Shown piece after piece: positions 4,966 through 60,447 of a DNA stretch of 64,000 nucleotides (position 1 is its first letter; the number at the start of each line of letters is the position of its first letter). A program made the position numbers and the translations under genes. The notes beneath the pieces are model-generated. The model was not told where the DNA came from and made no database searches. It saw only the letters and a list, made by a program, of their open reading frames with translations. The DNA is from Acidobacteria bacterium Mor1 (GTDB lineage Bacteria > Acidobacteriota > Polarisedimenticolia > Polarisedimenticolales > Polarisedimenticolaceae): contig CP011806.1 in the NCBI GenBank assembly GCA_001664505.1, positions 5,606,590 to 5,670,589 on the forward strand. Reading direction: 5' to 3'.

Positions 4966-6873
4966 ATGGAATCGAAACGAGACCTGATGCGCGTCGCCGC
5001 CACCGCCATGCTGCTGGTCATGGTCGGCGTACCCACCTTCGCCGCCGGCATACGAGGCGCTTCAGGAATGCCCGCCGCAACCTCCGGAGGGAGCAGCTCG
5101 GGGAGCTCTTCCGCTTCGTCGTCGGCCGCAACGGCGCCCGAGACGACGATGGCGTTGTTCGACGACGAGCGGGTCAGCGACGGTGTCGAGGAGGCGATCG
5201 ACTACCTCGACGATCCCGAGTTCATCGACCTGATCCTGATCTACGACCGTCCGCCCAGCTCTCACGATCGTTTCGTGCTGCAGGAAGCCGGCGGCACGAT
5301 CCTCAAGGTCTACCGCGGGCTGGACGGTTTCGCCGTGCGCCTGCCGGTGGAAGCCCTCGAAATCGCTCTCGCGCCGCGGCCGATGACCGAGCCCCAGTTG
5401 ATCGGCATCGACTGGGACTCGCCGGTGTCGCTCTCGCTGAACGTGGCCCGTGAAGCCGCCTTCAAGGAGGCCTCCCAGAACCCCGAGGGCGGCGAGGCTC
5501 CGGTGTCGGCTCAGATCGCGGCGGGTGTGGTCGGACACATGAACTTCGGCGAGGGCCAGGCCGCGACCGAGAGCGAAACGACTCCTCTCCCGGACGGTAG
5601 CGGCATCACCGTGGCCGTGATCGACTCAGGCGTCGTCGCTCACCCGGACCTCGGGCGGCGCCTGCTGGGCTGCGTGGACATCGTCGGCAACGAGGCCGCC
5701 TTCATCGCCGGACACACCATCGACACGGTGTCCTTCTATGGTTCTGTGCTGCCGATCGACAACCCGGTCAAGAGCACCGACCTGATGCAGATCGAGCCCT
5801 GCGGGGTCGACTCCGACCCCTTCGGTCACGGTACCCACGTCGCGGGGATCGTGGCCGGTGACGGTTACTCCTCCGAGGGCGCCTACGCAGGGATCGCCCC
5901 CGGCGCAGAGGTCATCTCGCTGCGGGTGCTCGACGGTGAGGGCGCCGGCCAGATCGACGACCTCATCGCGGCCCTCGACTGGGTCGCGATCTATCACGAA
6001 TCGCTGAACATCAAGGTCGTCAACATGTCGCTGGGCAGCCCGTTCTTCCTGCCCGCCGACAAGGATCCGGTCAACCAGGCGGTACAGAAGCTGATCGACA
6101 AGGGCATCGTCGTCGCAGCCTCCGCCGGCAACTTCGGCAAGTACGGTCCGTTCCTCGTGACCCGCCCGGGCAACGGCCCCGAGGTCATCACCGTCGGTTC
6201 GTTGACCGACGGCAACCACATGGTGACCGGCGCCCACTACGTCTCGACCTATTCCTCCCGCGGCCCGACCTTCCTCGACCACTACCTCAAGCCGGATCTG
6301 GTGGCTCCGGGCAACCGCATCATCTCCCTGCGCTCTCCCGGCTCGGTGCTGGCTCAGGCGCTGGATGACGGCACGCTGCCTCATCGTTACCTCGAGATGT
6401 CCGGTACCAGCATGGCGACCCCGATCGTCGCCGGTACCGCGGCGCTAATGATGTCGGTGCCCGAGGACAAGCTGGACCCTGCTTCGGTCAAGGCCCGGAT
6501 CATGGCCTCGACCCGCTTCATCGAAGGCAGCCCGATCGATCGCGGCGCCGGCCGCCTCGACGTGTTGGCCGCGTTGGCTCACGACGGCTACGCCGACCGG
6601 GCGGTCTCGCCCAAGGTGGTCCGCGACGGCGACTGCTGCGGCTTCCACCTGGAAGACGTCAGCGGAGAGTGGGGCGAGGCCTGGAGCGACGGCATTCTGT
6701 GGAGCGACGGGATCCTCTGGGGAGACGGGATCCTGTGGAGTGACGGCATCCTGTGGGGCGACGGCATCCTCTGGGGTGACGGTGCGCTCTGGTCGGACTC
6801 GATCCTGTGGTCTGACGGGATCCTGTGGAGCGACGGTGCGCTCTGGTCCGACTACTTGCCCGAGGCCGACTGA
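4966..6873 (+). CDS. Secreted subtilisin-like S8 protease with WxDGIL repeat tail
   Basis: The 635-residue product begins at an ATG with GGAGG 7 nt upstream. It has a signal peptide (to about residue 28) and a Gly/Ser-rich linker. A propeptide-like region (about 75-140) precedes the catalytic domain, which carries Asp220 (VIDSGV), His288 (HGTHVAG), oxyanion Asn389 (SAGNFG) and Ser482 (GTSMATP). The last 60 residues are ten six-residue units of the form W[SG]DGIL (Trp at 573, 579 and so on to 627), ending SDYLPEAD. Such tails occur on extracellular subtilases of Acidobacteriota and Myxococcota, but their role is not known to me. The 3' end overlaps the convergent regulator by 22 bp. Confidence 0.92.
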   Translation: MESKRDLMRVAATAMLLVMVGVPTFAAGIRGASGMPAATSGGSSSGSSSASSSAATAPETTMALFDDERVSDGVEEAIDYLDDPEFIDLILIYDRPPSSHDRFVLQEAGGTILKVYRGLDGFAVRLPVEALEIALAPRPMTEPQLIGIDWDSPVSLSLNVAREAAFKEASQNPEGGEAPVSAQIAAGVVGHMNFGEGQAATESETTPLPDGSGITVAVIDSGVVAHPDLGRRLLGCVDIVGNEAAFIAGHTIDTVSFYGSVLPIDNPVKSTDLMQIEPCGVDSDPFGHGTHVAGIVAGDGYSSEGAYAGIAPGAEVISLRVLDGEGAGQIDDLIAALDWVAIYHESLNIKVVNMSLGSPFFLPADKDPVNQAVQKLIDKGIVVAASAGNFGKYGPFLVTRPGNGPEVITVGSLTDGNHMVTGAHYVSTYSSRGPTFLDHYLKPDLVAPGNRIISLRSPGSVLAQALDDGTLPHRYLEMSGTSMATPIVAGTAALMMSVPEDKLDPASVKARIMASTRFIEGSPIDRGAGRLDVLAALAHDGYADRAVSPKVVRDGDCCGFHLEDVSGEWGEAWSDGILWSDGILWGDGILWSDGILWGDGILWGDGALWSDSILWSDGILWSDGALWSDYLPEAD

Positions 6874-9164: not shown

Positions 9165-12100
9165 GGCAGCCGTCCGGCGGCCTGTCGCGATCTTTGTTGC
9201 GACGCTGACCGCCGTCCTCTTCGGTTACCTGTCGTTCAAGAACATTCCCGTCGAGCTGCTGCCCGATCTGTCCTATCCGACGCTGACGGTGCAGACCAGC
9301 TATCCCGACGCGGCCCCCACCTCGGTGGAGCAGTTCGTCACCCGCCCGCTGGAAGAGGCGGTCGGAGTGATTCCCGGCGTGCGCCAGATGCGTTCGACCT
9401 CCCGCGCGGGCATGTCCGAGATCGTGCTGGAGTTCGAGTGGGACGAGTCGATGGATTTCGCGGCGATGGATGTCCGCGAGAAACTGGGCCTGGTCGACCT
9501 GCCGCTGGAAGTCGAACCACCCCGGGTGCTGCGCTTCGATCCTTCGCTGGATCCGATCGTGCGTCTGGCGTTCTCGGGCGATCGCAGCAACGACGAGTTG
9601 CGCCAGCTGGCCGACCGCTGGCTCAAGCCGCGCCTCGAGGCGATCAAGGGGGTCGCGGCGGCAAAGGTGCGCGGCGGCCTCGAACCTGAAATCCAGGTAG
9701 AAGTCGACGAAGACCGCATGGCCGCCCTGGGCTTGACTCTTGACGATCTGGCCCAGGCGCTACGGGCCGAAAACGTCAATCGCCCCGGTGGAACGCTCAA
9801 GGACCTCGGCACGGTGTATCTGGTGCGCACCCTGCACGAGTTCACCGACCTCGAGCAGCTGCGTCGCACGGTGGTCAAGGAAGAGGCCGGCGGCCGTATT
9901 CGCGTCGAGGACGTGGCCACGGTGACCCGGGGCCATCGGGACCGGCAGGAGATCACCCGCAGCCAGGGGCAGGAGGTGGTCGAGATCGCCCTCCATCGCG
10001 AAGGCTCCTCCAACACCCTCGCCGTGGCCGAGTCGATTCGCGAGGCCCTGGACGGGGACGAGACCGGACGGGGCGGGCTCGAGGCGCAGCTCGCCGACGA
10101 CCTGAAGCTTCGGGTGTTGACCGATCAGTCGATCTACATCGCCGACGCCATCGGCCAGGTGTGGAGCGCGGCGCTCATCGGCGGGTTGCTCGCCGTGTTC
10201 GTGCTGTACTTCTTCCTGCGCGACCTGCGCGCCACGGTGATCATCGGCCTGACCATCCCGATCTCGGTGGTGGCGACCTTCCTGCCGATGTACCGCACCG
10301 GAGTCAGCCTCAACATCATGTCTCTCGGTGGTCTGGCCCTGGGGGTCGGGATGCTGGTGGACAACTCCATCGTGGTGTTGGAAGCGATCGACCGCCGGCG
10401 CAAGGAGGGCCTGGCGGCGGCTCAGGCGGCGGCCCGGGGTGCCGGAGAGGTCTCGGGGGCGGTCACCGCGGCAACCCTGACGACGGTCTCGGTGTTCCTG
10501 CCGATCGTGTTCGTCCAGGGTGTTGCGGGCCAGTTGTTCTACGATCTGGCGGTCACGGTCTGCCTGGCCCTGCTCACCTCACTGGTGGTCTCGCTGACCT
10601 TCATCCCGATGCTCTCGGCTTTCACCGCGTCGGCGGCGAACCCCGGACGCCTCGAGGAACTGCTGGGAGCCCGCGAGGGCTCGAGCTACCTGGATGCCTG
10701 GAGCCAGTTCCTGCATCCGCGGAACCTGGCTACGCCGCTGACGGGTGGCGCCTCGAGTTTGCCGGGCAAGATCGCGATGGTGGTCCTGTGGCCGCTGCGC
10801 CTGGTGGTGAGCCTGCTGATCTATGTGCTGCGCGTCATCTTCTTCCTGGTGTTCTCGATCCTGCGCGCGATTGCCTACGTCCTGGCTCTCGTGCTGGGGC
10901 TGGTGTGGAAGCTCGTCGCAGGCTTGATGCAGATCGTGTTCTGGCCGTTGACCGCGATGATCGATGTCGTCGGCCGGTCCTATCCCGGGTTCCTCAGTGC
11001 ATCTCTGCGTGCGCGATGGGTCTTGTTGCCGCTGGCTTTCGCGCTTTTCGTCGTGTCGGTCGCCGCCGTGCCGCTTCTGGGCACCAACCTGGTGCCGGAT
11101 CTGTCCCAGGGTGAATTCGCTTTCCGGGCCAAGATGCCCGAGGGGACGACCCTCGAGGTCAGTTCCGAGCTGATCGAACGGGTCGAGCGGCGCCTGGTGG
11201 AAGATCCCCGTTTCGATCGGATCTTCACCGTGGTCGGCAGCTGGCCGTCGACCGCCTCGGGGCGCCAGACCCTGGGCGAGAACCTGGCCCAGGTGAACTT
11301 CGTGCTGCCCGAGGGGATCGATGCCGCCGGTGAACAGGCCGCGATCGAGCGGGTGCGGGAAGTCTTCGGCCTGTTCGACAACGTCGAAGCGGAGCTGGCA
11401 CACCCCTCGGTGCTCTCCATGCGGCCGCCCCTCGCCGTTCATCTGTTCTCGGACAACCTGGATTCGCTGGAGCTGGCGGCAAATCGCACGGCCGACATGA
11501 TGTGGAGCCTGCCGGCGGTTCAGGATGTGACGACTTCGTCGGAGCCGGGGAACCCCGAGATCAAGATCGAACTCGACCGGGCCCGGGCTTCGGACCTCAA
11601 CGTCCGCGCCGACCCGCTCTCCCGTTCACTGCAGCGTCAGATCGGTGGTGAACTCGTCGGGCAGTTCCGCGAAGAAGAAGAACGACTCGATATCCGGCTG
11701 CGCGCGTCGGAACGCTGGCGCGATCAGGCCGACGAAGTGGCCAACCTGCGCTACCGGCTGGATAGCGGCGCCGTCGTCCCGGTTTCCGCCTTCGCCGATG
11801 TGACGGTGGAACGTGGACCTGCCGCGATCCACCGGATCGGCGGCAGCCGAGTGGCCGAGGTCACGGCCAAGATCGAGTCCGGCGATCTCGGGCAGGCGAT
11901 CGCCGCCCTCCGCGGGCAGCTCGTCGAGCTCGACTTGCCCGGTGACGTGGTCGCCGAAGCGGCGGGGCAGGACCAGGACATGAAGGTCTCGCTGGACAGC
12001 CTCAAGCTGGCGCTGGCCCTGGCGGTGTTCATGGTCTTCGTGGTCATGGCGATGCAGTTCGAGTCGCTCAAGTATCCGTTCGTCATTCTGCTGTCGGTCC

Positions 12101-31833: not shown

Positions 31834-34332
31834 CTACGGACAGGCGGCAGCGGCGGTTCGCTCGGCGCCTGCGGAACTCTGTCCCAGGGTGCCGGTGCCG
31901 GCGCAGCTCGATGCGTTGACCAGGTAGTAGAGGGCGTTGCCCACGCCGGGCACTTGACCGTCGTCGGAGGTGCTGTTGCCGACGACGTCCGCCTGGAAGC
32001 AGCTCAGGTCCGAGGCGTCGGCCTGGTTACCGCGGTAGACGTCGTAGGTTTCAGCGTCGGCGTCGACGCTCCAGACCAGGTCGGCCACGGTGCCCGACGA
32101 GATCGAGAGCAGCAGGTTGGTGGTTTCACCGGGAATCGTGCCGGCGCACGCCAGGCAGTCGATGATCACCAGGTCGTCGATGGCTGCCTCGACGATGGAG
32201 CCGTCGCCGGCATCCTCGGCGATGAAGCGTAGCTGCACGTCGGCGGTCGGCGCGACGATATCCGCCACGCGGAAGATCGAGAAGATCCAGCCGCCGCCGG
32301 TCTCCGGTCCGGCCGGTCCGACCACCTCGACGTTGGTCCAGTTGCTGCCGCCGTCGTTGCTCACGTCGATGGTGAACACGTCGGTGTTGGGCGTGCTGCC
32401 TGCGTCGTTGGAGTACCAGCGCCAGTAGCCGATGTAGGGATCGGCCTGGGTGCTGACATCGAGGATCGGCGAGAACAGGGTGGTGGCTCCACCGTCGACG
32501 TCGTTTTCACCGACGCCGCCGCCGACCGAACCCTGTCCGGTGACGAAGGCCTGAACGCCGGCCACGGTGTGGTCGTCTTCGGGCTGCGCGTCGGTGCCGA
32601 TCGGATCGTCCAGCACCCAGATGCCGGTGGTGGCAGTGTCGCCCGGAGCGCCGACCGACCAGCCGGTGCCGGTCTCGAGGTCGAGGGAGATGTCGCACTC
32701 GTCGAGCAGACCGTCGCTGTTGCAGTCCTGGGCGCCGGCGGTGATGTCGCACTCGTCGGGAATCGAGTTGACGTTGCAGTCATCGCTTCCGCCGCTGTCC
32801 ACGTCGCAGCCGTCGGCGATGCCGTTGAGGTTGCAGTCCGGTTCGCACTCGTCGGGCACGCCGTTGAGGTTGCAGTCGTCGCTGGTCTGGTTGGCCACGT
32901 CCTCGGAGTCGTGGAGTCCGTTGGCGTTACAGTCGCCGACCCGCACGTAGTAGACGTCTTGCTCTCCGTTGAAGGTCGCCGAGTAGATCACTCCGGCGCC
33001 GAGCTCGTCGGAGACCATGTCGTAGTAGTCGCCGATCTTGTTCTGCTGCGGCCAGCCGACGGTGGAATCGAAGGCCGGGCTGATCGCCACACCGCCGGAC
33101 CAGCTGTCTCCGGCGTCGGTGGAGTAGGCGTAGTACAGCTCGGACATGGTGCCCGAGGCGTCGCCGCGGGTGTCGTTCCAGACCACGTCGATCCGCCCGT
33201 TGGGGGCGACGGACATGGTGCCGAACCAGTTCCAGGCGTTGCCGGTGTCATCGTTGACCCGGATCGGCGAGGTCCAGGTCGCGCCGTCGTCGGTGCTGCG
33301 GATGAAGTGCACGTCCATCGGGTCGGAGCCCGGCGGGTTGACCGACCCGAGCACGTAGACGTTGCCGTCGGTGGCGGTGCCGGAACGGTCGGCGGCGACC
33401 CAGACCTGGCCCAGCAGGCCCCCGGGGTTGGGCGTGCCGCCGCTGCTGGTGTTGCCGCCCAGGTCGATGGACTGGGCCAGTTCGAAGGTCGGCGTTTGCG
33501 AGGAGTCCCGGGCGTTGCTCGAACGCAAGATCAGATGAGAGGTCGCTGCCAGGTTGGCGCCGACCACGAAGAGCTGACCCGACGAGTTGGTGTCGAGGGT
33601 GCCCCACTTGGGTTTCTGAGGCATGGCCAGGGCGGGGCCCCAGGTCGCGCCGCCGTCGGTGGAGCGGGCGAAGTCGGTGCCCGCGGCGCAGCAGGTGAAC
33701 TGGGAGTTCCACAGCAGGTAAACGTGTCCGTCACCGATGCTGGTGGGGCTCTGGTCGATCACCATCCAGTTCTTGTCGCCCCCCGGTGAGGAGATCGGGG
33801 CGGACCAGGTGGCGCCCTTGTCGCTCGAGAGGAAGACCTCGGTGGTCGTCACGGTACTGAGGCTGTAGTAGACGAAGTCGCCGTTGTTGTCGGCGGCGAT
33901 GACCGGGTCGCTGCGGAACTGCGCCGGGTCCAGGGGGCCGTCGTTGTTCCAGGTCAGGCCGCCGTCGAGGCTGAAGGCCATGCCCGCCTGGCGGAAGTCG
34001 TTGGTGATGGTGCCGAACTCGCGCCATCCGACCACGATGTTGTTCGGATCGGTGGGGTCGATGTCGATGGAGGGCTCGTTGGCCGCGTCGCCCACGATGT
34101 TCTGGTTGAGGGCGTCGACGTTGACCTGGATGCTGCGGAAGTTGCCGCGAATCACGTCGGCCAGGGCCGACCGCTGCAGGGTGCCCTTGTCCACCGGTTT
34201 GGCAGGAGCCTTGACCTCGACCTCCTTGTGGCCGACGGTCTGGATCCTGGTCTCGGGTTTCTCCTCGGTCTCGGCCCAGGCACCCGGGGCGAGCAGGAGC
34301 GTCGCACACGCAATCGAAACGACAAATCTCAC
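31834..34332 (-). CDS. Secreted BNR/sialidase-fold protein with DCNxNG repeats
   Basis: The 832-residue product starts at GTG 34332, with AAGGGGGA about 5 nt upstream; a longer frame to 34401 would put 23 odd residues before the signal peptide (RFVVSIACATLLLAPGAWA). Residues about 70-460 contain BNR/Asp-box repeats (SLDGGLTWNNDG, SSDKGATWSAP, STDGGATWGP, STDDGATWTSP), as in beta-propeller sialidases. Next are at least four DCNxNGxxDxCD repeats (about 465-550), likely calcium-binding, then a beta-sandwich and a fibronectin-like C-terminus. Sialidase catalytic residues were not identified, so the activity is open. It is divergent from the ECF sigma gene. Confidence 0.82.
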   Translation of the reverse strand: MRFVVSIACATLLLAPGAWAETEEKPETRIQTVGHKEVEVKAPAKPVDKGTLQRSALADVIRGNFRSIQVNVDALNQNIVGDAANEPSIDIDPTDPNNIVVGWREFGTITNDFRQAGMAFSLDGGLTWNNDGPLDPAQFRSDPVIAADNNGDFVYYSLSTVTTTEVFLSSDKGATWSAPISSPGGDKNWMVIDQSPTSIGDGHVYLLWNSQFTCCAAGTDFARSTDGGATWGPALAMPQKPKWGTLDTNSSGQLFVVGANLAATSHLILRSSNARDSSQTPTFELAQSIDLGGNTSSGGTPNPGGLLGQVWVAADRSGTATDGNVYVLGSVNPPGSDPMDVHFIRSTDDGATWTSPIRVNDDTGNAWNWFGTMSVAPNGRIDVVWNDTRGDASGTMSELYYAYSTDAGDSWSGGVAISPAFDSTVGWPQQNKIGDYYDMVSDELGAGVIYSATFNGEQDVYYVRVGDCNANGLHDSEDVANQTSDDCNLNGVPDECEPDCNLNGIADGCDVDSGGSDDCNVNSIPDECDITAGAQDCNSDGLLDECDISLDLETGTGWSVGAPGDTATTGIWVLDDPIGTDAQPEDDHTVAGVQAFVTGQGSVGGGVGENDVDGGATTLFSPILDVSTQADPYIGYWRWYSNDAGSTPNTDVFTIDVSNDGGSNWTNVEVVGPAGPETGGGWIFSIFRVADIVAPTADVQLRFIAEDAGDGSIVEAAIDDLVIIDCLACAGTIPGETTNLLLSISSGTVADLVWSVDADAETYDVYRGNQADASDLSCFQADVVGNSTSDDGQVPGVGNALYYLVNASSCAGTGTLGQSSAGAERTAAAACP

Positions 34333-34475
34333 GAAATCCCCCTTTTCCGGCCACATTATGCTGTGACGGTATACGGCGAAGGGGGGAATCCAACAAGCCA
34401 TCGGGGCCGGTTGTCAGCCCGGCTCCTCAATTCCCGCCCACTTTGGGCGATACGGCTGCCGGGCCGGGCAGGGGA

Positions 34476-34503
34476 GTGAACCCGGGCCGTCGAACTCCGA
34501 CTA
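34476..34503 (+). promoter_or_regulatory. Predicted ECF promoter of the sigma-factor gene (site 1)
   Basis: GTGAACCCGG (34476-34485), a 12-bp spacer and CGACTA (34498-34503). The arrangement is identical to the element before the CHAT gene and near-identical to that before the anti-sigma gene. The distance to ATG 34540 is 36 bp. Indicates sigma autoregulation. Confidence 0.7.
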
Positions 34504-34505
34504 AG

Positions 34506-34524
34506 CCCTCGGATGATCCGAGGG
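34506..34524 (+). repeat. Hairpin in the sigma-factor 5' leader
   Basis: CCCTCGGA and TCCGAGGG pair perfectly around TGA, just after the predicted promoter and 15 bp before the chosen start. It would bury an alternative ATG at 34513, which supports the start at 34540. Confidence 0.45.
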
Positions 34525-34539
34525 GGATCGGAGAGCGGC

Positions 34540-35184
34540 ATGGACGGACTCAGGCCCAAGTCACTGCGCGAAATGCGCCGGAAGATCCGTATAATCCGAG
34601 GTCGCGTGAGCCACTCCGAGGACCAGACGCCCCAGGGGCAGATCGACGCCTACCTGCGAGGCGATGCCGATGTATTCCTGGAGGTGGACCTCTGGATCCG
34701 CACTCAGCTCCGCGCCCAGTATCCGGCCCTGCTCGACGAGGAGGAGGACCTCTGCCAGATGGTCCACCAGAAGCTGCTGGTGAACCTGCGCGAAGGCCGC
34801 TTCCGCGGCCAGTCCAACCTGCGGTCCTACGTGGGGGGGATCACCAACTACTCCTCGATCGACCGCCTGCGGGTGCGCTACCGGGATCGGGAGTTCCAGG
34901 AGGAGGCCGAGGCCGAGCTGCCACAGCAGGCCACCGACAACCCCTACCGGGACGCAGAGCAGAAGGACGAGGCCAAGCTGCTGCACCGGTTGGTGATGGC
35001 GATGCCGGCGGCCTGTCGGGAGTTGTGGCGGTTGGTCTTCGTCGAGAAGCTGTCCTACGTCCAGGTCGGCGAGGAGCTGACGATTCCGCCGGGGACGGTC
35101 AAGTCCCGGATGTGGCACTGCCGGCGCAAGGCCACGGAGATCTTGCGCCGGCTGAGAGTTGGCTTGACTGGGGAAGAGGACTAG
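34540..35184 (+). CDS. ECF RNA polymerase sigma factor of the CHAT locus
   Basis: The 214-residue product starts at ATG 34540 with GGAGAG 5 nt upstream; an in-frame ATG at 34513 lies inside a hairpin. Region sigma2 (about 35-105): YLRGDADVFLEVDLWIRTQLRAQYP, then LRSYVGGITNYSSIDRLRVRYRD. Sigma4 (about 145-205): MPAACRELWRLVFVEKLSYVQVGEELTIPPGTVKSRMWHCRRKA, a helix-turn-helix. It should direct RNA polymerase to TGAACC-N15-CGAC sites, one of which precedes it. The partner anti-sigma is probably 39409-40242. Its stop shares a CTAG with the convergent gene. Confidence 0.9.
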   Translation: MDGLRPKSLREMRRKIRIIRGRVSHSEDQTPQGQIDAYLRGDADVFLEVDLWIRTQLRAQYPALLDEEEDLCQMVHQKLLVNLREGRFRGQSNLRSYVGGITNYSSIDRLRVRYRDREFQEEAEAELPQQATDNPYRDAEQKDEAKLLHRLVMAMPAACRELWRLVFVEKLSYVQVGEELTIPPGTVKSRMWHCRRKATEILRRLRVGLTGEED

Positions 35185-36029
35185 CGACCGCCGCCGCCGC
35201 CGCCGCCGCCGTTGCTCTGGGGGCGAAGCTCAAACATGATGTCGGTGGTGATCATCGCGGGGTTTAGGAGTTCCATCCGGAAGCGCGTGATCGGGACGTA
35301 GGTCACATTGCCGTTCGAATCGGTCACCGGCATATCCTCGACGGTCAGCCCGGAAGTGTCGAGGGTGACGTTGTAGCCCGCCGTAATCAGGTCCCTCTCG
35401 ATCAGGGGGAGCATGTTGGTACCGGCGATGGTTTGAACCTTGATCTCTTGCTCGGCACCGGAGTTTGACCGGAATGCGACGATCACGTCATCGCCGGTAG
35501 CGTCCGGAACCTCTGCGAAGTGAGGGATCGACACGTACAGCCGTGTGGGGTCCTGGAACTCGTGCACCGTGATCTCGATGATGTCCAGGTCGGGGTCCGA
35601 CTCGGAAACGTTGATGCCCGGAATGATCTGAGGCCCAAAGAACGTGTCGTTGTACTGGACCCGGAAGTTGATCGGGGTCGCCGCACTGTTGTCGCCGTTC
35701 TGGAAGAACGTAAAGGCGGAGTTTTGTGGCAGCAGGAACTCGGCTTCCAGGCAGTCGAGCAGTTCATCGACTGCTGACGGAATCGAGCCCGGGTTGCCGT
35801 TGCTCACCGAGTAATCGCAGTCGACGAACGGGTTGACCGACAACCGCACCCGCGAATTTTGGTTGTTGGGCGGGGCGGGTGTGCCGCCACTGCTCGAGTC
35901 CGCCATGCCGACCGACGCGGACCGCGGCGGGATGCTGCTCAGGTCGTCAGGCACGGAGATGGACGCGCCGGCGGGGAGAAAACAAACGATTGTGAGCGTT
36001 AGGGCTACGCAGAACTTAAAATTCTTCAC
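35181..36029 (-). CDS. Unknown secreted protein with poly-glycine C-terminus
   Basis: I do not recognise a family. The 282-residue product has a signal peptide (FCVALTLTIVCFLPAGAS), a low-complexity Ser/Gly/Pro stretch (35-60) and a mostly beta domain with two cysteines (VDCDYS, LLDCLEAE). It ends in eight glycines and Arg, coded by a GCC-type trinucleotide run (about 35186-35211). GGAGGA is 5 nt before the ATG. The gene is divergent from the CHAT gene, and a candidate site for the locus sigma factor faces it, so it is probably a secreted part of the same system. Confidence 0.75.
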   Translation of the reverse strand: MKNFKFCVALTLTIVCFLPAGASISVPDDLSSIPPRSASVGMADSSSGGTPAPPNNQNSRVRLSVNPFVDCDYSVSNGNPGSIPSAVDELLDCLEAEFLLPQNSAFTFFQNGDNSAATPINFRVQYNDTFFGPQIIPGINVSESDPDLDIIEITVHEFQDPTRLYVSIPHFAEVPDATGDDVIVAFRSNSGAEQEIKVQTIAGTNMLPLIERDLITAGYNVTLDTSGLTVEDMPVTDSNGNVTYVPITRFRMELLNPAMITTDIMFELRPQSNGGGGGGGGR

Positions 36030-36045
36030 GATTCCTCCGTGGGGT

Positions 36046-36073
36046 GTGAACCCGGATATTTCTACGACGACTA
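36046..36073 (+). promoter_or_regulatory. Predicted ECF promoter of the TPR-CHAT gene (site 2)
   Basis: GTGAACCCGG (36046-36055), a 12-bp spacer and CGACTA (36068-36073): the same 16 fixed bases and spacing as site 1, while the spacer sequence differs completely. The -10-like part ends 18 bp before ATG 36092. Confidence 0.7.
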
Positions 36074-36075
36074 TC

Positions 36076-36103
36076 CTGTCGGGGGAAGGGAATGCCGGTT
36101 CAA
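36076..36103 (-). promoter_or_regulatory. Predicted ECF promoter of the secreted-protein gene (site 3)
   Basis: On the minus strand TTGAACC, 15 bp, then CGACAG: the same 28-bp frame as the other sites with a weaker ending. It is face to face with site 2 and overlaps the CHAT start, so the two promoters would compete. The -10-like part ends 46 bp before ATG 36029. Confidence 0.5.
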
Positions 36104-39100
36104 ATTCAGATGAAAAAAAGCGGTGGAAATCGAAATTTGAGAAAAACGCTAGTAATTATCCTCGTCGTGCTGGCAGCCGGCTGCTCGTCCCGGGACGATG
36201 CCGACGCCCGATCCGCCGAGCAAAACTCCGCTCTGAGAGCGATTGAATCGGAGCTGTTCGAATCGGACCGGACTACTGGCGAAGTCTGCCAACAGATGTC
36301 CGAGGTGGATCCGATTCACCCGATCCTCCTGCAGTTCGCCTTCAAGCGGCACTACTTCTCGGGCGGGTTCGAGGAGTTCGCCGAGTCCCTTTCGCGGTGC
36401 GTTGAGGATCCGTCACCGCTGTTTGATCTCGTGCAAGGTGTCGGGGCTCTAGATCGAAACGACCTAACGCGGGCCGAAGAACTCTTCGAACGCGCCCGAC
36501 AGGGATACAACGAGGCGGGGCATCCTGCTGGAGTCGGAACGGCACACTACAACCTCGCCACGGTATGCAGCTGGACCGACCGCCCCGACGAAGCTCAAGA
36601 ACACTTGGGGCACGCTGCGGAGTACCAGCATCGCGTCGGGGACGTCGCCAACGAGGCCGACGCACGGCTGCGCCGGGCCGACATCCTGTTCAGCCTGGGC
36701 CGACCTCGGGCCGCCCTGGACGAGCGGCAGGCTGTCGTGGCGCTAACCGAGGACCGCGACGTGGGTCTGTGGTGTGAAACCCGCATCGAGGTGGCTGACG
36801 GGAACAACCTGCTTGGCGACTACGAGACAGCTCACGCAGGTTTTCTTGACTTGGTCCAGGCTTGCGGTTCGACGCTCCTTCCCGAACGAGTTCTGTACGC
36901 GGAAATGATGGCGATCGATACGGCCATCAAGTTGGGGGCGCTGAGCCAAGCGAAGAGCATGATCGAGGAATGGCTCGAGCGGGCAACCCTCGAGAAGAGT
37001 CACGTTGGCCAAAGTGCCGCTCTCCAGCTTCGAGGCGAATACGGGCTCGCAACGGGTGCACCGCTACAGGCGTACGAGGACTTCCGGCAGGCCGAGGAGG
37101 CGCTCGACCCCGTGGACCCCCGCCGCCCGGCGCTAAAGGCGAGGGGTGGGCTAGCGATGCTTCGAGCTGGACAGCTCGCTGAAGCTCGGCGGGTCATCGA
37201 ATCGGCGTTGTCCTCCAACGTGCAGCCAGAAGAGATCTGGGTCGCCCATGCTCACAACGATCTGGCCGTGATCGCACGCAACGTCGGCGAGATCGCAGAG
37301 GCGGTGCTGCACCAGTCCAAGGCGCTTTCTGCCTACGAGGCCGCGGGCGATCTGCGGGGCGTGGCCAATAGCCAGCTGAACCTATCCGTGTCCTACTACG
37401 CTCTCGGCGCGTTCGACAAGTCGCTGGCCTCTTCCGAGCGTGCCGTCGAGATGAGTGCAGAGCTGCGGGACCCTACATTCGTCGGCAAAGCGCATGTCGC
37501 CCGCGCAGCGTCGATGTCGGGGCTTGGGCAATGGCGGCTTGCGGTGAAGGACTACCGGACAGCTCTCGAGTCGCTCGTTGACCCGTCGGAAGACCGGGTG
37601 CGTGTTCTGGCGAGCTTGGCTGCCGCCCTGGCTCGAGTCGACGCGCTGGAGGACGCTCAAGACGTGGCGAGGAAAGCGACGGAGCTGGCGGCCGATATCG
37701 GCGAGCCCGAGCACCTGGCGTTCGCCCGGAACGTCGCAGGGCGAGTCGCGAGCGCCCGTGGCGATTTGAATGCAGCGCTGGGGCACCACCGGAAGGCTCT
37801 TGAAGTGGCGTCGCGAGCCCGGTTGGTAGAACACATGGCGGCGGCGCGATGGTGGATGGGAGACCTGCACCGCGAAAGCAACTCAGCGGTGCAGGCCGGC
37901 CGTGAGTACGCGACCGCCCTCGACCTCCTGGAGTTGCAGCGAGGTCACATGGGAGGGCCTGAACTGCGGCGGGCGTTTCATGCCGAAAACCTGGAACTCT
38001 ACGAGAACGCGATTCAGGTTGAGCTGGCTGGTACAGCAGCCGATTCAAGGGTCTTCGAATTGATCGAGATGTCCCGTTCGCGCAGCCTCAAAGAGCTGCT
38101 GGAGGAATCGCGGCTTTCGTTGCGGGCTCGTCTCACGGAGCAACAGCAAGCCGACGAACGGGCGCTGGTCGCCGCACTGACAGAGGCTCATCGCGCGGTA
38201 CGTACCGTCGACGAGGGGCAGCGCTCGAGCGCGGTGGCGGCTCTTGAGAAGGCGCAAGCCAGCCTCGCGACTTTTCGCCTGGACCTCCGCGTCAGCAACC
38301 CGGACTACGCTGCCGTGGAGTACCCGGTAGCTGCGGATCTCGCAGAGGTACAGCGTTTGCTGGGTCCGGACGAACTCTTGCTCGAGTTTTTCGTCGGAGA
38401 GTCGCAGGCCTGGCGCATGGACATCACGCGTCAAGAGGTTTCGCTGCACGAGCTGCCGATACCGTCTCGTATTGAGCAAGAGGTGCTTTCCATCGCCAAG
38501 GTGCTCCAGGCTCCAGCGTTGGGTGGGGTCCCGGGGCACGGGGCCGGCCGACTGGCCGCGAGCATTCTTCCTGACTCAATTCCTGAGGGAATCACCAGGT
38601 TGCTCGTCGTTCCGGACGGGGCCTTGCATCGACTCCCTTTCGAAGTCATCCGGGGAGCGGATGGCTTCCTCGTGGAGAAGTATGAGATCGTCGCGCTGCC
38701 GTCGGCGACCACGTTGGTGGACCGTCGTGTGAAACCCGTTCGGAGGGCAACATCCGGTTGGATTGGCCTGGGCGCACCCGCTTCAGAGGGCGCCGATTCA
38801 GAGTTTCCGCCCTTGCGCTACGCCGGTCCGTCACTCGAGTCGATCGCCGGGTTGTTTACTACGAGCCGCGAGGTGGTCATGGAGCAACAGCTCGTTCGAG
38901 AGAGCTTCGAAGCCCAGCCGATGGCGAGTTTCCGGTACATTCACTTCGCAACCCACGCCTCTATCGATAGCGAGAACCCTTCGGCTTCGGGGCTCCTGTT
39001 CTCGGATGGTCTCGTGCGGCTTGATGAGGTGCTGCAACTCGACCTCAACGCCGAGTTGGTGACTCTGTCGGCGTGCGAGTCGGCCACGGGAGAGCTGGTC

Positions 39101-39391
39101 CGTGGAGAGGGGTTCATCGGTCTCACCCGCGCCTTCCTCTACGCAGGGTCCGACGCGGTGCTCGCCAGCCTGTGGAACGTCAACGACAAATCGACTGCCG
39201 ATTTCATGGTGCGCTTCTATTCCCATATCCGGGACGGCATGTCGGTGCCGGCTGCTCTGCGCCGAACCAAGATCGAGTTCATCCGATCCGACCTCCCCGC
39301 TCATCGGGATCCCTACCGCTGGGCACCCTTCGTCTTGATCGGCCACCCCTCTGTCGGCGAAACTGAACCCGTAGCTCGGCGAAACGACTAG
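36092..39391 (+). CDS. TPR-CHAT caspase-like protease, predicted lipoprotein
   Basis: The 1099-residue product has lipobox LAAG-Cys31 followed by Ser, so it is likely anchored to the outer membrane. Residues about 90-640 are tetratricopeptide-like helices (for example GVGTAHYNLATVCSWTDRPDEAQEHL, RGVANSQLNLSVSYYALGAFDKSL). The C-terminal CHAT domain (about 760-1090) carries the caspase-type dyad His955 (HFATHA) and Cys995 (LSACES), and ends ALRRTKIEFI...PYRWAPFVLIGHP. CHAT proteases cleave specific partner proteins; the partner here is unknown, the anti-sigma being the obvious candidate. ATG 36110 is an alternative start. The 3' end carries the promoter element of the anti-sigma gene. Confidence 0.92.
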   Translation: MPVQIQMKKSGGNRNLRKTLVIILVVLAAGCSSRDDADARSAEQNSALRAIESELFESDRTTGEVCQQMSEVDPIHPILLQFAFKRHYFSGGFEEFAESLSRCVEDPSPLFDLVQGVGALDRNDLTRAEELFERARQGYNEAGHPAGVGTAHYNLATVCSWTDRPDEAQEHLGHAAEYQHRVGDVANEADARLRRADILFSLGRPRAALDERQAVVALTEDRDVGLWCETRIEVADGNNLLGDYETAHAGFLDLVQACGSTLLPERVLYAEMMAIDTAIKLGALSQAKSMIEEWLERATLEKSHVGQSAALQLRGEYGLATGAPLQAYEDFRQAEEALDPVDPRRPALKARGGLAMLRAGQLAEARRVIESALSSNVQPEEIWVAHAHNDLAVIARNVGEIAEAVLHQSKALSAYEAAGDLRGVANSQLNLSVSYYALGAFDKSLASSERAVEMSAELRDPTFVGKAHVARAASMSGLGQWRLAVKDYRTALESLVDPSEDRVRVLASLAAALARVDALEDAQDVARKATELAADIGEPEHLAFARNVAGRVASARGDLNAALGHHRKALEVASRARLVEHMAAARWWMGDLHRESNSAVQAGREYATALDLLELQRGHMGGPELRRAFHAENLELYENAIQVELAGTAADSRVFELIEMSRSRSLKELLEESRLSLRARLTEQQQADERALVAALTEAHRAVRTVDEGQRSSAVAALEKAQASLATFRLDLRVSNPDYAAVEYPVAADLAEVQRLLGPDELLLEFFVGESQAWRMDITRQEVSLHELPIPSRIEQEVLSIAKVLQAPALGGVPGHGAGRLAASILPDSIPEGITRLLVVPDGALHRLPFEVIRGADGFLVEKYEIVALPSATTLVDRRVKPVRRATSGWIGLGAPASEGADSEFPPLRYAGPSLESIAGLFTTSREVVMEQQLVRESFEAQPMASFRYIHFATHASIDSENPSASGLLFSDGLVRLDEVLQLDLNAELVTLSACESATGELVRGEGFIGLTRAFLYAGSDAVLASLWNVNDKSTADFMVRFYSHIRDGMSVPAALRRTKIEFIRSDLPAHRDPYRWAPFVLIGHPSVGETEPVARRND
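39363..39390 (+). promoter_or_regulatory. Predicted ECF promoter of the anti-sigma gene, inside the CHAT coding end (site 4)
   Basis: CTGAACCCG (39363-39371), then spacer, then CGACTA (39385-39390): the same 28-bp layout as sites 1 and 2. It lies over the last codons of the CHAT gene, so the coding sequence also serves as a promoter. It ends 18 bp before ATG 39409. Confidence 0.62.
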
Positions 39392-39408
39392 ATGGTGTGG
39401 AGACCAAA

Positions 39409-40242
39409 ATGACGCGCGACGGGAGGATTCACGCCCTACTCCCCTGGTTCCTCAACGGAACCCTCCCAGAGCCGGAAAACCAGGCTTTTGCCGACCATCT
39501 GTCGGCCTGTGAGGGGTGCCAAAAAGAGATGAAAGTCGTCCGCAAGCTGCAACGGCAGATGGAGAAGCACGGCGAGGCTTTCGTCGAGGATCATCCGTCG
39601 GCGGAAGAGATCGTCGCAGCGTCGAGAGGGGAGCTTTCCGGTGAGCATGCCGAGCGGGTGTCCCGGCATCTCGCGCTCTGTCGAACCTGTGCGCTCGAGG
39701 ACAAGTGGGCCAGGGGAAAGGCAGTAGCAGGGCGTGAGGCCGGAGGCACGGTTGCCGAGTTCACGCGCAAGGCTCCGGCTGCCTCGCCGGCGACCGTGCG
39801 CATGGGAGCTCCGTGGTGGTTGGTCGCCGCAGCCCTGGTCGCCGGTGTCGTGTTTACCTTCTTGTTGAAACCGGTCTCGGAGTCGCAGAAACCCGACCTG
39901 GGCCTGAATATTTCAGTCCTCGTGGGGACCGAACTCTCCGACGATCCCTCCGACGCACTCGTGCCTGATATGGACGCCGGGGTGGTGCAGCTGTTGTTGT
40001 CGATCGATGCGGCCCCCTCGGACTATCCGCTCACCGTTGAGGTCGAATCGGACTCCGGGGATGTCTACCGCTTCGAGCGATCGATCGGCGGTATCGAGCA
40101 ACTGATCCAGGGGCAGTTCGTCCTGGTACCGGCTCCGCTCGAGGTCTGCTCGCCGGGTGGAAGCTGCACGGTTCGTGCGAGAACTGCCGGCGGCTCGGTT
40201 GCCGTCGAGCGGGCTTTCCGGGTCGCCCCCGCCTCAGACTAA
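39409..40242 (+). CDS. Membrane anti-sigma factor with two zinc-finger (HxxxCxxC) motifs
   Basis: The 277-residue product starts at ATG 39409; an in-frame GTG at 39397 is less likely because TGGAG fits ATG 39409 better. The N-terminus, IHALLPWFLNGTLPEPE, is typical of zf-HC2 anti-sigmas. His30-Cys34-Cys37 and His87-Cys91-Cys94 are two zinc sites. One membrane helix (about 135-153, PWWLVAAALVAGVVFTFLL) leads to an outside domain of about 120 residues with a cysteine pair (VCSPGGSC). It should hold the ECF sigma factor at the membrane. The outside domain is exposed to the CHAT lipoprotein, which could cleave it (inference). Confidence 0.85.
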   Translation: MTRDGRIHALLPWFLNGTLPEPENQAFADHLSACEGCQKEMKVVRKLQRQMEKHGEAFVEDHPSAEEIVAASRGELSGEHAERVSRHLALCRTCALEDKWARGKAVAGREAGGTVAEFTRKAPAASPATVRMGAPWWLVAAALVAGVVFTFLLKPVSESQKPDLGLNISVLVGTELSDDPSDALVPDMDAGVVQLLLSIDAAPSDYPLTVEVESDSGDVYRFERSIGGIEQLIQGQFVLVPAPLEVCSPGGSCTVRARTAGGSVAVERAFRVAPASD

Positions 40243-59163: not shown

Positions 59164-60447
59164 CTAGCGGCGAGTGGACGAGGCGGTGGATGTCGGAAGC
59201 GCCGGGCAGGAGACGAGAGGATCGAGCTGCGCCAGTGCCAGGCAAGCGTCGATGGTGTGACTGGGCGCGCCGAAGGCATCCAGAGACTGAGTCGACGTGC
59301 TGCGCAGGAGGCGCTCCAGCTCGAGGGGAGTGCGTTGTGGAGCGCGTTCGCGCAACAGGGCGAGAACGCCCGACGCATTGGCCGCGGCGAAGGAGCTTCC
59401 GCTGACGTAGTCGAAGCTTCCGCCGGGCTGGGCGGCGAGGATTTCGGAGCCGGGAGCCCGAAGGGCATCACCTCCGTAGGGCGGGGTAGCCCCGGATCGG
59501 GTCACCGCGATCACACCCTCCACCGAGGCCGGGAAGCCGGGGGCGCTCGAGGATTCGGTGCCGGCTGCAACGACGATCGAGCCGCGCTCGACGCCCTTGC
59601 GGATCAAACGCGCCAGCAACGGGTCGTCGGGGCCGCTGAGGCTCAGGTTGATCAGATCGGCCTGTTCTTCGATGGCGAAGGAAATTGCCTTGAGCAGGGT
59701 CAACGAACTACATCGCCCTTCTCCGGACTCCTCCCAGCACCCGCGCAGCGCCAGAATCGTTGCGTCGGGTGCCACTCCCAGGGTTCCGATGCCGTTCCCC
59801 GACGAGGCGATGATGCCCGCGACGGCGGTGCCGTGTTTCTCCGCCTGGCGTAGCGGCCCCGCCCCACGCCCGACGAAATCGCGGCCGATCTCGATCCGGC
59901 CCTGAAGGTCGGGGTGCGCTACATCGACGGCGGTGTCGACGACGGCGACCCGGACGCCTCGGCCCGCGACCCAGCGGTGGGTCTCGGGCACACGCATCCT
60001 CTGGAGGCCATGCTGAAGCTCGGCGTAGGGGTCGGCGCGCTGGGTCGTGAACCCCTGCATGGGTTGAACCGATTCCACCCGGGCATCGGTACGTAGCTTG
60101 CCGATCGTTTCTTCCAGGCTTGCACCGGGCGGGATCTCGAAAGCGACGCAATAGAGATCGAGGGCGGGGATCAACCAGTCCTCCCGTTCGACCAGCGCGT
60201 AGTCGCGGCTCAGCCGACGCGCTTCCCGGCGTAGGTAGCTCCCTACGGCGTAGCGCCGCGAGCCCTGGTATGCGTCTGCGGTGCCGCCCGCCGACGGGAG
60301 TGGAACCGGGGCCGGGGCCTCGATGGTCAGCAGGATGACCGGGCGAGCGGTCACGGGCTGGGGTTCGAGCCGCGGCCCGGAGCAGCCGGAACCGCCGGCC
60401 GTGAGCAGCGCGAGCAGGCATCCCAGAAGGAGGTGCGGCGGTTTCAT
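59164..60447 (-). CDS. S8-family peptidase lipoprotein with altered oxyanion site
   Basis: The product is 427 residues from ATG 60447. Lipobox GGSG-Cys22 suggests membrane anchoring. An inhibitor-like prodomain (about 85-150, with DWLIPALDLYCVAFEI and ARVESVQPMQGF) precedes the subtilase domain: Asp171 (VVDTAVDVAHPD), His205 (KHGTAVAG) and Ser352 (GSSFAAANASG). At the usual Ala-Gly-Asn oxyanion motif the sequence reads AAGTESS, so the Asn is replaced. The second His of HGTHVAG is also changed (HGTAVAG). Activity may be reduced or altered. No repeat tail, unlike the subtilase at 4.9 kb. Confidence 0.88.
   Translation of the reverse strand: MKPPHLLLGCLLALLTAGGSGCSGPRLEPQPVTARPVILLTIEAPAPVPLPSAGGTADAYQGSRRYAVGSYLRREARRLSRDYALVEREDWLIPALDLYCVAFEIPPGASLEETIGKLRTDARVESVQPMQGFTTQRADPYAELQHGLQRMRVPETHRWVAGRGVRVAVVDTAVDVAHPDLQGRIEIGRDFVGRGAGPLRQAEKHGTAVAGIIASSGNGIGTLGVAPDATILALRGCWEESGEGRCSSLTLLKAISFAIEEQADLINLSLSGPDDPLLARLIRKGVERGSIVVAAGTESSSAPGFPASVEGVIAVTRSGATPPYGGDALRAPGSEILAAQPGGSFDYVSGSSFAAANASGVLALLRERAPQRTPLELERLLRSTSTQSLDAFGAPSHTIDACLALAQLDPLVSCPALPTSTASSTRR

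Follow-up and report, generated by a model that had tools for sequence, protein, structure and literature searches.

A candidate envelope-signalling regulon joining an ECF sigma factor, a membrane anti-sigma factor, an exported TPR-CHAT protein and a secreted protein in Acidobacteria bacterium Mor1

The anti-sigma factor DdvA of Myxococcus xanthus is reportedly a transmembrane protein with a periplasmic TPR-CHAT region whose active site is incomplete, and it is said to regulate a CBASS-CRISPR island. RseA/DegS/RseP and RsiW are organized around a single-pass anti-sigma factor with an outer sensor domain, and in systems of this type the signal is relayed by a periplasmic site-1 protease. In the DdvS-DdvA pair (PDB 8ROT, 8RW5 and 8RLZ), an ECF sigma factor is combined with a ZAS anti-sigma factor physically linked to a CHAT domain; DdvS is active once DdvA has been inactivated, and then drives the PddvS promoter (PMC4374960). 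Type III-E CRISPR systems (Csx29, Csx30 and CASP-sigma) comprise a TPR-CHAT protease, an ECF-like sigma factor and an inhibitor that the protease cleaves; sigma-binding motifs are present in the system's own locus (PMC10028731). A literature search covering few subscription papers turned up no account of CHAT paired with an ECF sigma factor other than in CRISPR systems.

We analyzed a stretch of 64,000 nucleotides (64 kb) of the genome of Acidobacteria bacterium Mor1, hereafter the window. It encodes an ECF sigma factor, a secreted protein, an exported TPR-CHAT protein and a membrane anti-sigma factor, with a promoter-like element before each gene (Table 1). The locus recalls each of the three described systems: DdvS-DdvA by its ECF sigma factor, ZAS anti-sigma factor and CHAT domain; type III-E by a TPR-CHAT protein, an ECF sigma factor with candidate binding motifs in its own locus and an inhibitor; and RseA and RsiW by a single-pass anti-sigma factor with a predicted outer sensor domain, where a periplasmic site-1 protease would be expected to relay the signal. 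Judged from the elements and their conservation, the four genes very probably form one regulon.

Table 1 Predicted genes and promoter-like elements of the locus (positions in the window)
Feature	Position	Strand	Details
Element before sigma gene	34477–34503	+	TGAACC-N15-CGACTA
ECF sigma factor	34540–35184	+	TIGR02937; open frame from 34513
Secreted protein, 282 aa	35181–36029	−	Signal peptide; GTG start at 36029 after GGAGG
Element before CHAT gene	36047–36073	+	TGAACC-N15-CGACTA
Element before secreted-protein gene	36076–36102	−	TGAACC-N15-CGACAG
Exported TPR-CHAT (caspase-like) protein	36092–39391	+	PF12770, E 3.1e-64; several TPRs; His955/Cys995
Element before anti-sigma gene	39364–39390	+	TGAACC-N15-CGACTA; within last codons of CHAT gene
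Membrane anti-sigma factor	39409–40242	+	Two zf-HC2/ZAS, one TM, predicted outer beta-sandwich; open frame from GTG 39397

The gene identities proposed by the sequence-only reading were borne out by family models: TIGR02937 for the sigma factor, PF12770 with TPRs for the CHAT protein and two copies of zf-HC2 for the anti-sigma factor. The sigma factor scored 63.1 bits against a TIGR02937 (sigma70-ECF) cut-off of 42.9; among solved proteins it is closest to B. subtilis SigW (5wuq, E 1.4e-06), and its relatives in the alignment (A1) share 38–48% identity. Both the sigma and the anti-sigma gene calls held, but the starts are better placed at ATG 34540, which follows a Shine-Dalgarno-like GGAG, than at 34513, and at ATG 39409 than at GTG 39397. 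The anti-sigma N-terminus carries zf-HC2 (PF13490) twice (47.8 bits) with the H-x3-C-x2-C zinc-finger helical bundle, a transmembrane helix is indicated by hydropathy at about residues 138–156, and the profile matches ChrR, DdvA and RsiW. The C-terminal outer domain is predicted to be an Ig/FN3-like beta-sandwich, with middling scores (best Z 8.3, pLDDT mostly 70–90 in this region); we recognized no conserved site of cleavage in the anti-sigma factor. The secreted protein matched no Pfam, solved or curated family, and its structure prediction was unusable (pLDDT 34).

The catalytic Cys995 named earlier in the CHAT protein is accompanied by His955, and this His and Cys are invariant in all 13 proteins examined; the dyad of the window CHAT protein appears complete, and the protein is apparently catalytic. 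Residues 21–31 of its open reading frame read VIILVVLAAGC and contain the lipobox pattern VLAAGC. The earlier description as a lipoprotein thus fits the window copy, which probably is one, but does not extend to most relatives, which have an ordinary signal peptide. CHAT proteins of the window type carry export signals wherever the N-terminus is complete, and predicted export, rather than lipoprotein nature, is their general feature.

Among solved structures, the CHAT-domain profile matches 8rot_B best (E 1.7e-11); separase (E 0.02) and the type III-E proteins (E 1e-4 to 0.02) come behind it. The anti-sigma profile matches 8rot_B as well, weakly (E 0.03), and 8rot_B is one of six hits obtained with the anti-sigma zinc finger; its own zinc finger does not differ, where the two align, from the one in 8RLZ ('Antisigma factor DdvA'). 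Because 8rot_B is matched by both CHAT and anti-sigma profiles, the solved protein fuses what the window encodes in two genes, and such a fusion is a usual sign that the separate genes act together. The statement that the set is 'not a described system' was therefore too strong: 8ROT/8RW5 is a single 991-aa protein that joins the DdvA anti-sigma zinc finger to a CHAT domain. The window is nevertheless not of the DdvA type, with ZAS, TM and TPR-CHAT in one polypeptide; its anti-sigma factor and TPR-CHAT protein are separate genes, each matching a different part of 8rot_B. Further differences from DdvA are an anti-sigma factor with two ZAS domains and a beta-sandwich where DdvA has CHAT, the apparently complete dyad of the CHAT protein, a separate sensor domain, the secreted partner proteins, and neighbors of amino-acid biosynthesis rather than defense. 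The system can be described as a split, apparently catalytic variant of a DdvA-like arrangement.

The resemblance to type III-E CRISPR noted at first reading holds as an idea but not as membership, since the curated Csx29 model gave 34.7 bits against a cut-off of 300. In line with the statement that no CRISPR is present, the 64-kb window contains no array in which 22-mers recur at regular intervals. Unlike in type III-E, the window protease is predicted to be exported and the inhibitor is a membrane zinc-finger protein. Compared with the RseA and RsiW systems, the candidate site-1 protease is a caspase-like CHAT protein with TPRs, encoded beside the anti-sigma factor. A defense island was also considered and rejected: PADLOC returned nothing beyond weak matches of TPR and CHAT-like type, and the locus is surrounded by housekeeping genes, the flanking open reading frames being argR, argG, proB, proA and other amino-acid biosynthesis genes.

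The four elements of one layout claimed before the four genes are present. TGAACC-N15-CGACWR occurs exactly four times in the window against 0.02 expected (mean of dinucleotide-preserving shuffles), and four copies were reached in none of 100 shuffles of the window. Each copy is directed at the start of one of the four genes. The spacers are unrelated, as had been stated, with a mean pairwise identity of 0.29 over 17 elements, and thus give no sign of a duplicated segment. In the genome-wide scan that had been set beforehand as a test, the motif proved rare, with nine copies in 5.985 Mb (one for the reversed control pattern), mostly at gene starts; four of the nine fall within the 5.8-kb stretch of the locus (binomial ~1e-10). 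The shape of the element agrees with the promoter consensus of SigW, TGAAAC-N16-CGTA, SigW being the nearest solved relative of the window sigma factor. The window elements are promoter-like and are candidate ECF-type two-box promoters.

The elements of the CHAT and secreted-protein genes (36047–36102) stand face to face with their −10 boxes 2 bp apart, so that the two promoters could not be occupied simultaneously and their transcripts would overlap at the start; an either/or switch is possible. Upstream, a secreted BNR-repeat protein with repeated DCNxNGxxD motifs (31834–34401, −) is divergent from the sigma gene and has no element. Elsewhere in the same genome the element precedes a secreted-protein gene, a BNR-repeat lipoprotein (2755649), a secreted subtilase and a 21-residue signal-peptide-like frame. 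At the last of these sites (2153817; L002/L180:1501), the element is followed by a Shine-Dalgarno sequence and the 21-codon frame MRWIRILAICLVVAGLTHSRS, which resembles a signal peptide standing alone or the remnant of a broken gene. Two subtilase-like proteases of the window (about 5809–6534, +; 59293–59841, −) match the secreted subtilase. Two of the five strict matches outside the locus, at 1.59 Mb and 3.10 Mb, are antisense or intragenic and were set aside as background.

Co-occurrence of the genes in relatives had likewise been set beforehand as a test, and the same anti-sigma factor was found with the same CHAT type across genera and families. The related loci compared were L042, from the same genome; L056 and L057, from G004, a genome of the same family; one locus each from G017 and G020, which belong to another family; and one from G040, of a third. 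All six contain the full-length same anti-sigma factor together with a CHAT protein of the window type, and the anti-sigma factors are orthologous across their full length (E 1e-25 to 1e-39). The anti-sigma gene lies directly behind CHAT in six of seven loci. A sigma factor is present in four of the six related loci (L042, L056, L057 and G017); none was found beside CHAT and anti-sigma in the G020 and G040 contigs, which are short. Relatives of the secreted protein are divergent from CHAT in L056, L057, L058 (G017) and L187 (G020). Of the parts of the set this protein varies most, with 18–22% identity among relatives against 28–32% for the anti-sigma factor. In the paralogous locus L042, sigma, CHAT and anti-sigma genes are accompanied by a weaker element; no element before its anti-sigma gene and no recognized partner of the large secreted protein were found there. 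The full-length anti-sigma subtype was found in 5 of the class's 41 genomes; a wider search, over 396 genomes of the phylum, added only weak partial matches. Scanning named genomes with the sigma alignment was rejected as a source of relatives: it returned mostly generic ECF factors from other phyla, and no CHAT gene in the stretches obtained except L061, which is the same place as L056 of G004. These stretches served as control.

The element accompanies the gene set and recurs before the corresponding genes in four other genomes. In seven related stretches, TGAACC-N15-CGMC occurs 12 times against 0.25 expected, and a control of 18 loci of other CHAT genes in the same genome (204 kb) contains three. 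For TGAACC-N15-CGMCTW, four of the six genome-wide copies in G004 lie within its two loci (binomial 4e-10), and the sole copy in G017 lies in its locus. A looser form has three of five copies in the locus in G017, two of five in G020 and one of two in G040; in three genomes of the class that lack the subtype, 3 to 6 copies lie scattered. Wherever a secreted-protein gene is present (five loci: window, L056, L057, L058 and L187), the element stands before it. It also stands before the anti-sigma gene in six loci, within the preceding gene or at its end. At the latter position it is kept in L056, L057, L187, L188 and L189 in different reading frames, encoding different residues, and is thus conserved as DNA; in L057 it sits in the sigma gene, not in CHAT. 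Variants of the −10 box are found in L057 (CGCC) and L042 (CGACTC), suggesting that promoter sequence has drifted slightly between paralogous sigma factors.

Among the loci compared, elements before sigma and CHAT occur only in the window. On this evidence the conserved putative targets are the secreted proteins and the anti-sigma factor, and outside the window locus the protease may not belong to the regulon. Further candidate targets are small Cys-rich secreted proteins behind the element in L042, L057 and L058. Since the element stands before secreted-protein genes both in relatives and at other sites of the same genome, a regulon made up of secreted proteins is plausible. The Cys-rich proteins at L042:3898–4320 (−) and L057:1609–2010 (+) have a common CPYxxC domain (47% identity over 74 aa) and no Pfam match. 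L042 also has a good element copy at 10232–10258 (+), upstream of the paralogous sigma gene and pointing away from it; this copy is antisense to the end of an FG-GAP gene, with no clear frame behind it. In G004, AraC-type HTH proteins of ~125 aa without a ligand domain are encoded behind the element at L056:8794–9168 (+) and L057:6624–7001 (+). The presence of such genes after the element in both G004 loci raises the alternative that a different DNA-binding regulator, such as these AraC-like proteins, binds the 28-bp element, which would then not be a sigma promoter. We consider this very improbable: the window locus showed no AraC-like gene, the element is directional, of fixed spacing, aimed at gene starts and of two-box ECF promoter form, and it tracks the sigma/anti-sigma subtype, genomes without that subtype having scattered background copies only.

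Comparison thus provides the gene set, the shared elements, their conservation, the predicted export signals and the apparently intact dyad; the sigma/anti-sigma pairing and promoter use we infer from known families. The proposal of one regulon with an envelope-side protease is well supported by the conservation across genera and families. In the full model, to which we give an even chance, the locus is a cell-envelope signalling regulon whose CHAT protease inactivates the anti-sigma factor; the direction of signalling, this cleavage, the identity of the signal and the function of the secreted protein are inferred. At rest, the two-zinc-finger membrane anti-sigma factor would keep the ECF sigma factor at the membrane. 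The periplasmic TPR-CHAT protease would sense a signal through its TPR superhelix and cut, or otherwise inactivate, the outer beta-sandwich of the anti-sigma factor, after which ordinary intramembrane proteolysis would release the sigma factor. The freed sigma factor would transcribe from TGAACC-N15-CGACTA and raise the secreted protein, the protease and the sigma factor itself; anti-sigma would rise too, closing a negative feedback loop.

Action of CHAT on the anti-sigma factor is the best reading, though one we hold at only about evens; it is drawn from the fusion in 8ROT, from adjacency and from export. CHAT might instead process the secreted protein or proteins, the matured product being the output or the ligand of the anti-sigma factor. 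We regard this as unlikely, although no target of the element is more constant than the secreted protein, its gene is divergent from CHAT, and small Cys-rich secreted proteins also stand behind the element; the low conservation of the secreted protein, the lack of a recognized processing site in it and a known fusion that unites CHAT with the anti-sigma factor all argue the other way. The element before the window CHAT gene itself suggests yet another role, that of a regulon output such as an envelope stress or death effector, with an unrelated site-1 protease cutting the anti-sigma factor. CHAT proteins elsewhere are effectors, both gasdermin-linked and CRISPR-linked, and fit such a role. We find it rather improbable, however: other loci of the window type have no clear element before CHAT, so that CHAT is not a general target, and the 8ROT fusion again speaks against it.

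CHAT action on the anti-sigma factor can also be viewed against the wider association of CHAT genes with ECF sigma genes. The own genome contains 21 CHAT genes and 99 ECF-model matches, and 17 of the 21 CHAT genes lie within 6 kb of an ECF-type sigma gene, against a random mean of 3.8 and a maximum of 13 in 20000 draws. Forty CHAT stretches were sampled from other genomes of the class, many of them cut off by contig ends; an ECF-type gene is present in 21 and a related anti-sigma factor in 13, counts made without a random control. The window system is probably the visible part of a larger family. Somewhat more tentatively than for the model itself, we suggest that exported, catalytically active TPR-CHAT proteases might be general triggers of ECF sigma factors in this class, forming a large family of split protease/anti-sigma systems of which DdvA and CASP-sigma would be special fused or recruited cases.

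The recurrence of the set and its element in related genomes suggests a protease-controlled alarm system of the cell envelope. If this is true, control of sigma factors by caspase-like proteases would be a general form of envelope-crossing signalling outside CRISPR, and the CRISPR-linked protease/sigma systems and DdvA would fall within a wider family. With its promoter code and several independent versions in nature, the system lends itself to a study of its mechanism in E. coli.
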